From the NCBI GenBank assembly GCA_028343155.1, contig JAOLXX010000002.1, positions 1 through 64,000 on the forward strand: a stretch of 64,000 nt of DNA, given 5' to 3'. Numbering within the stretch: position 1 is the first letter of the stretch; every line of letters begins with the position of its first letter. The notes under the pieces are model-generated. The model ran no database searches. It had not been told where the DNA came from and worked only from the letters and a program-made list of their open reading frames with translations. The translations under genes were made by a program, and so were the position numbers. This document shows positions 50,575 through 53,470 of this stretch, piece after piece. This DNA comes from Polaribacter sp. GTDB taxonomy: Bacteria > Bacteroidota > Bacteroidia > Flavobacteriales > Flavobacteriaceae.

Positions 50575-51741
50575 ATGAACAGTATGTATTTTACTGAAGA
50601 GCACGAAGCTTTTCGTGCTAGTTTCAAAGATTTTTTGCAGAAAGAAGTAGTCCCTCACATCAATAAATGGGAGAAAGAAGGAAGTATAGAACGTTTCATT
50701 TGGAAGAAATTTGGAGAGATGGGGTACTTTGGTTTAAATACTCCAGAGGAGTTTGGTGGTTTAAATTTGGATTTATTCTACACGGTTGTCTTTTTAGAAG
50801 AATTACAAAAGATTAATTCAGGCGGATTTGCAGCAGCAATCTGGGCACACGAATATTTAGCAATGACACACCTTATAGAAGAGGGTGATACTTTTATTAA
50901 AAATAAATATTTGGCACCAAGTATTTCAGGAGAGATGATTGGTTGCCTCTGTATTACAGAACCATTTGGAGGTTCTGATGTTGCAGGGATGCGTTCTACA
51001 GCAATTAAGAAAGGAGAGACCTATATCTTAAATGGATCAAAAACATTTATTACAAATGGTGTGTTTTCAGACTATTTAATTGTTGCAGCAAAAACAGATC
51101 CGTCAGACAAACATAAAGGAATCAGTCTTTTTGTGGTCGATAGGGATTCAAAAGGACTCACAGCAACTAGTTTAGATAAATTAGGTTGGAAAGCTTCAGA
51201 TACAGGAGAAATTGCTTTTGATAATGTAGAAATTCCTGCTAAAAATTTATTGGGAGATGAAGGAAAAGGATTTCCATATATTATGCAACACTTCGCGTTA
51301 GAACGTTTAATTATGGGAGTAAATGCCCATGCAAGAGCAGAATTCTCCTTAGATTATGCTATAAATTACATGAAAGAACGAGAAGCTTTTGGTAAATCTT
51401 TAGATAAATTTCAAGCATTGAGACACAAGATTGTAGAAATGGCGAGTAGAGTTGATATGTGTAAAGAATATAATTATTCAATTACAAAGCGTTTAGATCA
51501 GGGGCAGTACGTTGTAAAAGAGGCAACGATGTCTAAGTTATTGTCAACAAAAATGGCAGATGAAGTAATTTATGACGCCTTACAAATGTTAGGGGGCTAT
51601 GGTTATATGGAAGAATATCCAATGGCACGTTTATTACGTGATAGCCGACTAGGCACAATTGGAGGTGGAACTTCAGAGATTTTAAAAGAAATTATAGCAA
51701 AAATAGTAATTGACAAAAAAGAGTACAAGCCAGTGATGTAG
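50575..51741 (+). CDS. Acyl-CoA dehydrogenase (catalytic Glu on IVD/LCAD-type helix)
   Basis: 388-residue FAD enzyme. Segments: FGEMGYFGLNTPEEFGGLNLDL, MIGCLCITEPFGGSDVAGM, TGEIAFDNVEIPAKNLLGDEGKGF, FGKSLDKFQALRHKIVEM, and LGGYGYMEEYPMARLLRDSRLGTIGGGTSEIL. At the usual MCAD catalytic position (YEGT) it has GGGT (Gly364), while FALERL in helix G carries Glu243, the base position used in isovaleryl-CoA and long-chain acyl-CoA dehydrogenases. Substrate likely branched-chain or long-chain acyl-CoA. It is between the HhH gene and rpsU as often seen in Flavobacteriia. Confidence 0.93.
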   Translation: MNSMYFTEEHEAFRASFKDFLQKEVVPHINKWEKEGSIERFIWKKFGEMGYFGLNTPEEFGGLNLDLFYTVVFLEELQKINSGGFAAAIWAHEYLAMTHLIEEGDTFIKNKYLAPSISGEMIGCLCITEPFGGSDVAGMRSTAIKKGETYILNGSKTFITNGVFSDYLIVAAKTDPSDKHKGISLFVVDRDSKGLTATSLDKLGWKASDTGEIAFDNVEIPAKNLLGDEGKGFPYIMQHFALERLIMGVNAHARAEFSLDYAINYMKEREAFGKSLDKFQALRHKIVEMASRVDMCKEYNYSITKRLDQGQYVVKEATMSKLLSTKMADEVIYDALQMLGGYGYMEEYPMARLLRDSRLGTIGGGTSEILKEIIAKIVIDKKEYKPVM

Positions 51742-51852
51742 CTTTTTACAGGGCCTTCCCTAAAGGTCGGGCTTTGCGTTTTATTTTTTATATCAAATAA
51801 AAGATATCACTACAATTCTTAACGCAAATTTAGAAGTCAAAAATAATTTAGT

Positions 51853-51887
51853 ATTCATAATTCATATTTCAAAATTTGTAATTACTT
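51853..51887. repeat. Degenerate heptad repeat upstream of rpsU
   Basis: Five consecutive 7-base units ATTCATA, ATTCATA, TTTCAAA, ATTTGTA, ATTACTT running into the rpsU -7 box. The first two are identical. Confidence 0.5.
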
Positions 51888-51890
51888 TTG
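51883..51890 (+). promoter_or_regulatory. Bacteroidota -7 promoter box (TACTTTTG) for rpsU
   Basis: TACTTTTG matches TAnnTTTG, 73 bases upstream of the rpsU start, leaving a leader long enough for regulation. Confidence 0.5.
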
Positions 51891-51946
51891 CAGTCCAAAA
51901 AATAAACTAATAGTTTAAACACTATTCAAAATATAAAGAGACTATG

Positions 51947-51956
51947 AAAGGAGGTG
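51947..51956 (+). promoter_or_regulatory. Unusually strong Shine-Dalgarno of rpsU (AAAGGAGGTG)
   Basis: AAAGGAGGTG lies 7 bases before the ATG at 51964 (GGAGG core 9 bases before). Most other starts in this window have no recognisable Shine-Dalgarno. In Bacteroidota ribosomes bS21, bS18 and bS6 hide the 3' tail of 16S rRNA, so a strong SD on the bS21 gene itself suggests it is read mainly by ribosomes short of bS21. Confidence 0.85.
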
Positions 51957-51963
51957 CCTACTT

Positions 51964-52161
51964 ATGTTAATTATACCAATTAAAGAAGGAGAGAATATAG
52001 ATAGAGCTTTAAAGCGTTACAAAAGAAAATTTGATCGTACTAAAACGATGAAGAACTTGCGTGCTAGAAAGAACTTTACAAAGCCATCTGTAGCTAATAG
52101 AGCTCAAAGAATTAAAGCTTCATACGTTCAAGGATTAAGAACAAAAGAAGAAATAGGTTAG
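51964..52161 (+). CDS. rpsU: 30S ribosomal protein bS21
   Basis: 65-residue basic protein: LIIPIKEGENIDRALKRYKRKFDRTKTMKNLRARKNFTKPS is a normal bS21, with a Flavobacteriia-type C-terminus ending RTKEEIG. It binds the platform of the small subunit and, in this phylum, helps cover the anti-Shine-Dalgarno tail. Its own start has a very strong SD (see that entry) and an overlapping 8-codon reading frame, pointing to autoregulation. A strong hairpin terminator follows. Confidence 0.96.
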   Translation: MLIIPIKEGENIDRALKRYKRKFDRTKTMKNLRARKNFTKPSVANRAQRIKASYVQGLRTKEEIG

Positions 52162-52182
52162 CAATAACTTATTTGAAATATC

Positions 52183-52217
52183 AAACTCGTAATGCATTTT
52201 GCATTACGAGTTTTTTT
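52183..52217 (+). terminator. Rho-independent terminator after rpsU
   Basis: Perfect 13-base stem, left arm 52183-52195 and right arm 52201-52213 (core ACTCGTAATGC / GCATTACGAGT), 5-base loop, then a run of T. It ends rpsU and separates it from xerC. Confidence 0.92.
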
Positions 52218-52230
52218 ATGTTTAATTTTT

Positions 52231-52268
52231 TGTAATTTTACCAATTACCAATTACTAAATAACTAATA
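52231..52268. repeat. Degenerate heptad repeat before xerC
   Basis: Units read TAATTTT, ACCAATT, ACCAATT, ACTAAAT, AACTAAT in consecutive 7-base steps, ending at the TTG start of xerC. Confidence 0.5.
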
Positions 52269-52270
52269 AT

Positions 52271-53158
52271 TTGATCGATTCATTTTTAGCATATATTACT
52301 TTAGAAAAAAAATATTCTATACATACAATTACTGCTTATAAAAATGATTTAATTTCTTTCACAGATTTTTTAGTTACCCAATACAATCAAGAAAATTTGT
52401 TAGAAGTTCACTATCCGCAAATTAGAAGCTGGATTGTCACGCTGGTTGCTGATAAAATATCGAATAGAACAATCAATAGGAAAGTAAGTTCTTTAAAGTC
52501 TTTTTATAAATTTTTACAAAAAACGAAGCAAATAGCTGCAAATCCATTATCAAAACACAAAGCCTTAAAAATAGAGAAAAGAGTTCAGGTGCCTTTTTCA
52601 TTTAAAGAGATTGATGCCGTAGTTAAGGAAGTTGCAATTGACAATGATTTTACATCCGTCAGAAATAAGCTGATTATAGAGTTATTATATTCAACTGGAA
52701 TAAGAAGAGCAGAGCTTATTCATCTTAAAGAAAGAGATGTTAGTCTGTCAGATAGAACAATAAAAGTCCTAGGGAAAAGAAATAAAGAACGATTTATTCC
52801 TTTGTTATACTCGGTAATTCAAACCTTAAAAGACTATTTAGAATTAAAAAAAGAATTTACAAGCGGAGAAGAAGAACTCTTTATTACAGAAAAAGGAAAT
52901 AAATTATATGAAACACTTGTCTATAGAGTTATAAATTCCTACTTTAGTAGAGCATCTTCAAAAGAGAAAAAAAGTCCACATATATTGCGGCATTCTTTTG
53001 CAACACACCTCTTAAATGGAGGCGCAGATTTAAATTCAGTTAAAGAGTTGCTAGGGCATTCATCTTTAGCATCAACACAAGTCTACACTCAAAATAGTCT
53101 TGATGTTTTAAAAAAAGTATACAAACAAGCTCACCCTAGGAGTAATAAAAATAAATAA
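52271..53158 (+). CDS. xerC: Site-specific tyrosine recombinase, XerC/XerD type
   Basis: 295 residues. N-terminal SAM-like core-binding domain (1-90, FLAYITLEKKYSIHTITAYKNDL). Catalytic residues: Arg145 (TGIRRAEL), Lys169, His237-x-x-Arg240 (HILRHSFATHL), His263 (LLGHSS) and Tyr272 (TQVYTQ). It resolves chromosome dimers at dif with a partner recombinase. The start is TTG at 52271; no ATG exists before a good core-binding domain. A dedicated phage-integrase role is unlikely because there is no element around it; the surrounding rpsU-xer-hpf order is standard in the family. Confidence 0.93.
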   Translation: MIDSFLAYITLEKKYSIHTITAYKNDLISFTDFLVTQYNQENLLEVHYPQIRSWIVTLVADKISNRTINRKVSSLKSFYKFLQKTKQIAANPLSKHKALKIEKRVQVPFSFKEIDAVVKEVAIDNDFTSVRNKLIIELLYSTGIRRAELIHLKERDVSLSDRTIKVLGKRNKERFIPLLYSVIQTLKDYLELKKEFTSGEEELFITEKGNKLYETLVYRVINSYFSRASSKEKKSPHILRHSFATHLLNGGADLNSVKELLGHSSLASTQVYTQNSLDVLKKVYKQAHPRSNKNK

Positions 53159-53161
53159 TGT

Positions 53162-53470
53162 ATGAAAGTATTCACGCAATCCGTTAATTTTAATGCAGAC
53201 AAAGAACTTATAAATTATGTAGATGAAAAAGTTTTAACATTGGTTAAGTTTCATGATAAAATAGTTGATGCAGAAGTTTTTTTAAAAGTTTTGAATATTA
53301 GTGATAAAGAAAATAAATTAGTAGAAGTTAAAATTAATATTCCAGGAAGTGAATTGATTATTAAAAGAGAAGCAAAAACCTTTGAAGAAGCAGTTAATGC
53401 TGCGGTAGATAATCTAAAAAGACAATTGAAAAGATCTAAAGAAAAACACAGAGATTCATTAATCTCTTAA
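53162..53470 (+). CDS. hpf: Ribosome hibernation/inhibition factor HPF (short form)
   Basis: 102 residues of the RaiA/HPF family. VNFNADKELINYVDEKVLTLVKFHDKIVDAEVFLKV and ELIIKREAKTFEEAVNAAVDNLKRQLKRSKEKHRD show the beta-alpha-beta-beta-beta-alpha fold with a basic C-terminal helix. No long C-terminal dimerisation domain, so short-HPF class. Binds the small-subunit decoding channel in stationary phase. Three bases after xerC, likely one transcript. Confidence 0.9.
   Translation: MKVFTQSVNFNADKELINYVDEKVLTLVKFHDKIVDAEVFLKVLNISDKENKLVEVKINIPGSELIIKREAKTFEEAVNAAVDNLKRQLKRSKEKHRDSLIS

Follow-up and report, generated by a model that had tools for sequence, protein, structure and literature searches.

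The window, the 64,000-nt stretch of Polaribacter sp. DNA analysed here, carries rpsU, the gene of ribosomal protein bS21, on its forward strand. The genome assembly has a size of 1.92 Mb and is 81% complete. The rpsU start is preceded by an extended Shine-Dalgarno (SD) sequence and crossed by a mini-ORF of eight codons. The features of the locus are as follows.

51883–51890, forward strand: −7 promoter box TACTTTTG; Bacteroidota consensus TAHHTTTG (PMC6847099)
51909–51926, forward strand: predicted leader hairpin AATAGT-TTAAAC-ACTATT, from the minimum-energy fold of the window leader
51927–51943, forward strand: A-rich stretch of 17 nt linking the hairpin to the mini-ORF, whose ATG has A at −3
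51944–51970, forward strand: mini-ORF MKGGAYLC, 8 codons, ATG AAA GGA GGT GCC TAC TTA TGT TAA, stop at 51968–51970
51946–51956, forward strand: GAAAGGAGGTG, 11 bp with the 16S tail by duplex energy; it includes the extended SD AAAGGAGGTG (51947–51956)
51964–52161, forward strand: rpsU, ribosomal protein bS21, 65 aa, Tyr54 present, Pfam Ribosomal_S21 at 57.9 bits
52183–52218, forward strand: hairpin resembling an intrinsic terminator, followed by a T run, downstream of rpsU, by eye (stem 52183–52196 / 52200–52213)

The mini-ORF covers the SD, is out of frame with rpsU and terminates within rpsU codons 2–3; its start, reading and stop were given exactly in an earlier note on this DNA. rpsU appears monocistronic, since the terminator-like hairpin and T run, recognised by eye, lie directly downstream. 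Transcription is predicted to start at about 51895 (spacing of 4–5 nt and box consensus TAHHTTTG as in PMC6847099), giving a leader of about 69 nt. Downstream of rpsU (window 51964–53470) lie a XerC-type recombinase gene and then a ribosome hibernation (S30AE/HPF) gene; a XerC-type recombinase adjoins rpsU in 120 of 126 long loci. An Rfam search of 51740–52280 gave 11 matches, none at the gathering score, and hence no known structured RNA family in the leader. One sub-threshold match, to Flavo-1 RNA (RF01705; 51761–51830, minus strand, 27.8 bits vs gathering 42, E 0.0009), sits between an acyl-CoA dehydrogenase gene and rpsU.

Extended Shine-Dalgarno sequence of rpsU

Paired with the 16S tail CACCUCCUUUCU, the rpsU SD has a duplex energy of −19.2 kcal/mol, and the runner-up in the window reaches −9.1 kcal/mol (56 window ORFs scored: rpsU and those of at least about 90 codons, each at its best ATG among the first 50 codons). 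The earlier note had picked this SD out as the strongest noticed in the window, and the energies bear it out. Among the window ORFs, rpsU lies below −13 kcal/mol, unlike the other genes. The tail was taken from relatives because a motif search of the window's own 81%-complete genome found no 16S end; 19 tails, identical over CACCUCCUUUCU, came from 9 of the 24 same-genus genomes that were searched. The anti-SD CACCTCCTTTCT is intact in all 19 tails (9 genomes), and presumably in the window's genome too, by its relatives. Tyr54, the Bacteroidia residue redirecting the 16S tail, is present in the translated window bS21.

SDs of −14 to −21 kcal/mol are described as typical of rpsU in Bacteroidia (PMC9976891). 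According to the same source, loss of bS21, or of its C-terminal part, makes Flavobacterium johnsoniae ribosomes better at initiating on rpsU, and bS21-deficient ribosomes do worse on the tested SD-less mRNAs; the preference is backed there by in vivo, in vitro and comparative evidence (McNutt et al. 2023, PMC9976891). The proposal of the earlier note that ribosomes lacking bS21 prefer rpsU is thus already published for F. johnsoniae, and the testable sequence features are present here. Judged by these features, the window rpsU SD is a further member of the published bS21 autoregulation. Use of the window SD by bS21-free ribosomes would follow by analogy, from the features in common with F. 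johnsoniae.

A total of 361 rpsU loci were collected; after removal of 36 duplicates, 325 distinct leaders remained, of which 304 have the extended SD. The 304 were used for triplet counts. The 21 left out are 12 bS21 paralogues (7 same-genus genomes), 8 loci from other Flavobacteriales families, and L256, of the window's family.

The paralogues (L168–L179) occur one to three each in 7 of 36 same-genus genomes and are 53–62% identical. They have no SD, yet carry a tyrosine in place of Tyr54 (KAxY); having no SD, they would escape SD autoregulation. The extended rpsU SD is also absent from L184, L281, L282 and L284, all Flavobacteriales, and from L256, which belongs to the window's family. Among the genomes in which both rpsU leader and 16S tail were read, the tails are altered in those of L282 (tail L150) and L284 (tail L153); that of L184 (tail L140) keeps CACCTCC.

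Conservation and substitutions of the mini-ORF

The triplet ending on the first G of the SD reads ATG in 156 of the 304 leaders, AAG in 104, TTG in 30, GTG in 8, ACG in 5, CAG in 1 and CTG in none; the absence of CTG is weak alone, because independent changes are few. NTG thus occurs in 194 distinct leaders, and AAG accounts for 104 of the other 110. Main-copy loci of the same genus have NTG without exception (138/138; 122 ATG, 12 TTG, 4 GTG); they come from 137 genomes, 157 same-genus genomes having had a match. The NTG of these loci stands at −20 relative to the rpsU ATG, in L376 alone at −23, where three extra bases between SD and rpsU keep the mini-ORF frame. In other genera of the family NTG is present in 27 of 122 loci, picked among the best matches of a 347-genome search, a sample leaning to near relatives. 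Within this sampling the mini-ORF is found mainly in one large clade (Polaribacter, Tenacibaculum, Lutibacter, Wenyingzhuangia and others), with scattered cases elsewhere. The earlier note had wanted mini-ORF conservation in rpsU leaders checked; its NTG is present in all same-genus main-copy loci fetched and in 194 of the 304 leaders overall. One extra spacer base puts NTG in frame with rpsU in L137, L230 and L280, two of which read through, possibly into an N-terminally extended bS21.

On a first tree, with weakly supported deep forks, position −20 changed 8 times and −19 4 times in 97 clade rows (NTG or not), compared with 21–28 changes in each column from −25 to −21 and 13–23 in columns −32 to −26. 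A second tree was built from bS21 and the neighbouring XerC of 138 loci (6 of 144 long loci, lacking a usable XerC, were left out). Its 108 NTG rows require 20, 26, 25, 30 and 22 changes at −25 to −21 and 13–30 in columns −40 to −26. Per column the mini-ORF requires 9, 0, 0 changes in codon 1 (the zero at −19 follows from selecting NTG rows), 3, 5, 14 in codon 2, 0, 0, 1 in codon 3, 0, 0, 0 in codon 4, 0, 3, 22 in codon 5 and 6, 8, 13 in codon 6. The start codon is more conserved than its surroundings, by column changes and by its presence in all 138 same-genus loci, as looked for in an upstream ORF. A chance ATG before the SD was rejected by the column change counts on both trees. F. johnsoniae has fewer AUGs near starts than expected (PMC6847099), which makes a fixed one unusual.

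Opposite the T at −19, 16S has U (19 tails, 9 same-genus genomes), so the SD loses one base pair, worth 0.7 kcal/mol relative to A. Leaders without the ORF mostly carry the pairing A (104 AAG and 1 CAG of 110). In the 97 clade rows −19 is T 90 times and A 7 times, never C or G. SD pairing was rejected as the reason for this T, which loses 0.7 kcal/mol by facing U.

Codons 3 and 4 of the mini-ORF, and in part codons 2 and 5, are fixed by the SD itself. Eight columns lie outside the core SD; there, third positions take 49 of 74 changes in carriers, against 9 of 29 in relatives (23 rows, 22 without NTG; Fisher p 0.002), in a short ORF whose column classes were compared only after the pattern had been seen. 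Carriers' changes lie mostly at third codon positions (AAR, GCN); non-carrier relatives have no such excess. Codon 2 is AAA in 93, AAG in 82, AGA in 12 and GAA in 7 of the 194 NTG leaders; without NTG (110) the same position is AAA in 57, AGA in 51 and AAG in 2. With NTG the purine wobble thus falls on the third position of a lysine codon, and in leaders lacking NTG on the middle one. The pairing energies of AAG and AGA with 16S are similar (−18.9 vs −19.3 kcal/mol), and AAG alone keeps the lysine. Amino-acid entropy in 189 carriers is 0.59 in the mini-ORF frame vs 1.12 and 1.31 in the others; 69 non-carriers give 0.92, 0.92 and 0.91 across frames, and 44 carriers taken as outside the genus, a few of which may belong to the GTDB genus, give 0.95, 1.35 and 1.46. 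The commonest readings among the 189 are MKGGANLC (49) and MKGGANIC (27). Substitutions in the mini-ORF frame are therefore coding-like, within the limits of a short ORF and columns classed post hoc. Judged from these patterns, the mini-ORF has probably been selected as a translated ORF.

The stop is at +4 in 190 of 194 NTG leaders (spacing usual in 188, 3 nt shorter in one and 3 nt longer in another). This position is no sign of selection, because it is set by the rpsU codons Met-Leu-Ile and the Leu2 bias is alike without the ORF. Selection on the stop via the rpsU Leu2 codon was accordingly rejected: CTT and CTC are avoided in leaders without the ORF too (0/110). Seven of 115 clade rows retain the extended SD without NTG, so NTG is dispensable in those rows. 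C at −7 is still present in four of the seven, and to that extent the conserved GC does not depend on the ORF. In five related leaders within the mini-ORF clade (L059, L060, L070, L112, L113) −19 is A, not T, and the TG end of the SD is gone, with a shift of helix register; four of them form one subgroup (support 91), and L060 branches beside it without resolution.

Leader upstream of the mini-ORF

The promoter box TANNTTTG is present in 191 of 194 NTG leaders. Among leaders with a recognisable promoter, the median distance from predicted transcription start to triplet is 49 nt with NTG (192 leaders) vs 10 nt without (110). This association is confounded by one clade, and well-supported independent pairs number 2 for it and 5 for ATG vs TTG/GTG. 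Seven leaders with less than 15 nt in front also have NTG.

Many long leaders contain a predicted hairpin, which ends 17–23 nt upstream of NTG in L002, L024, L049 and L127; the bases separating the two are A-rich. In a per-sequence stem scan, many relatives have the AATAGT stem or variants that are still complementary (AATAGC/GCTATT, AGCAGT/ACTGCT, AACTGATA/TATCAGTT); on the window leader itself the scan prefers another stem, TAAACT/AGTTTA, whose score, at 0.07, is not individually significant. Long leaders have a mean score of 13.6 vs 10.4 in dinucleotide shuffles. The hairpin is individually significant (at most 5%) in 46 of 117 long leaders and not in 71, the window's included. The mean fold z over 93 leaders is −4.1 against plain shuffles, which are less strict than dinucleotide ones. 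No consensus pairs emerged from RNAalifold run on 27 rows aligned with MAFFT, in which the arms were staggered. The predicted hairpin is thus supported in part, by the stem scan. Five loci without mini-ORF (L189, L243, L250, L253, L259) have a longer leader starting with a hairpin, e.g. CCCCGT...ACGGGG in L243 (by eye); a 5' hairpin may be recurrent in long rpsU leaders.

The predicted mean unpaired probability is 0.65 at −37 to −21 (188 leaders); predicted openness is moderate at the mini-ORF start (0.47) and the rpsU start (0.37). Upstream adenines help SD-independent starts in Bacteroidota (PMC6847099). The mean A-context score is 2.12 of 4 at NTG vs 1.55 at the rpsU ATG (193 leaders); the value at NTG is slightly above a sliding control (2.12 vs 1.85), and the rpsU ATG scores better in 35 of the 193. 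By its sequence, the layout, whose features are confounded with one clade, looks like an SD-independent start site directly over the SD.

Candidate competition between two start sites

The earlier note suggested that the mini-ORF tunes rpsU by competing for the same ribosomes. Conservation, coding-like substitutions and leader layout speak for the tuning; that the mini-ORF is translated, by which ribosomes, and that it represses by competition instead of feeding rpsU, we infer. The identity of the competitors was revised. The mini-ORF start codon has no SD of its own and therefore more plausibly recruits bS21-containing, SD-blind ribosomes than those drawn to the rpsU SD.

In the model so obtained for rpsU leaders of Polaribacter/Tenacibaculum/Lutibacter-type flavobacteria, ordinary bS21-containing ribosomes, blind to the SD, would start at the NTG at −20 and translate the eight codons, at a start site backed by its own leader, with an A-rich stretch and, in many cases, a hairpin before it. 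While initiating or elongating on the mini-ORF they would cover the SD and the rpsU start, lowering SD-independent leak and steepening the feedback. In ribosomes without bS21 the 16S tail would be exposed; by forming the 11-bp duplex with the SD they would initiate rpsU at 51964, and bS21 would be restored. Belief and doubt are nearly balanced for this occlusion of the SD by SD-blind ribosomes, doubt being slightly ahead. The fuller statement, that the leader may be a ribosome-composition switch with two overlapping, mutually exclusive starts, where only bS21-free ribosomes use the SD for rpsU, is put forward more tentatively.

Two main rivals stand against the competition model: an effect of opposite sign, feeding by reinitiation, and conservation of the bases for a reason other than translation. 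In the latter only the SD would matter, with NTG and the following GC kept for tuning of the SD–anti-SD helix end or for a protein or RNA contact, the codon pattern being coincidental. Such a reason would account for the seven of 115 clade rows without NTG, in five of which A at −19 accompanies loss of the TG end of the SD and in four of which C at −7 persists without an ORF; bases near the SD, e.g. AA at −21 and −20, are conserved in ORF-less relatives as well. Helix trimming would, however, permit C or G at −19, of which the 97 clade rows contain none, and the wobble at −15 and −6 and the low entropy of one frame in carriers only are left unexplained. We regard a non-translational reason as rather unlikely.

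Coupled genes have overlapping start and stop. In a feeding mechanism the mini-ORF stop (+4 to +6) would let terminating ribosomes step back and reinitiate over the rpsU start, supplying basal bS21 by translational coupling. The overlap resembles that of coupled genes, the stop stands at +4 in nearly all carriers, and the SD would be placed where a terminating 30S subunit could be held. Against this, the rpsU codons Met-Leu-Ile dictate the stop in any case, Leu2 bias being alike without the ORF, and reinitiation by SD-blind ribosomes would weaken the feedback; feeding is considered improbable. A by-product of chance, with NTG arising from AT-rich bases before the SD's G and carried by descent, is the least credible reading and close to refuted. 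Any A-T ahead of the conserved G gives ATG, and NTG also stands in seven leaders with less than 15 nt in front, but −20 and −19 are far less changed than −25 to −21 on the same tree, and AUG near starts is otherwise underrepresented (PMC6847099).

What is new is the overlapping mini-ORF variant; SD-based bS21 autoregulation of rpsU is known. A mini-ORF over the rpsU SD was not found in the open-access literature searched, nor was ribosome profiling for Polaribacter. In that literature the only match for rpsU together with uORF concerned OLE RNA in Bacillota; titles and abstract openings on Bacteroidota upstream ORFs or leader peptides did not name rpsU or bS21, and matches for a Tenacibaculum maritimum transcription start site were, by title, on other subjects. 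The terms 'uORF' and 'upstream ORF' are absent from the main text of PMC9976891.

Specialized ribosomes are a disputed concept. The rpsU of Bacteroidota is a clear bacterial case according to PMC9976891. If the competition model holds, the mini-ORF would convert a preference on one side only into competition between two ribosome types. A natural mRNA in which an SD-blind start overlies an SD-dependent one would by its own design report ribosome composition in both directions, and would show how a lineage strengthened its feedback.

In bacterial regulatory uORFs and translational coupling, too, a short ORF runs across the start of the gene under control. Here, unlike there, the first codons of the ORF are the SD, and the composition of the ribosome is proposed as the sensor in place of a metabolite or a stalled peptide. 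The F. johnsoniae rpsU system, as described in PMC9976891, shares with the window the extended SD, the CCUCC-core 16S tail, Tyr54 and rpsU apparently transcribed alone. Its leader is 25 nt (PMC9976891) vs about 69 nt predicted in the window, which, unlike F. johnsoniae rpsU, has a predicted hairpin and the overlapping mini-ORF. The mini-ORF shares with Kozak-like SD-independent initiation, as described in PMC6847099, a stretch rich in A before the NTG, frequently with A at −3; in that account AUG is underrepresented near starts, whereas here an out-of-frame NTG is kept at −20.
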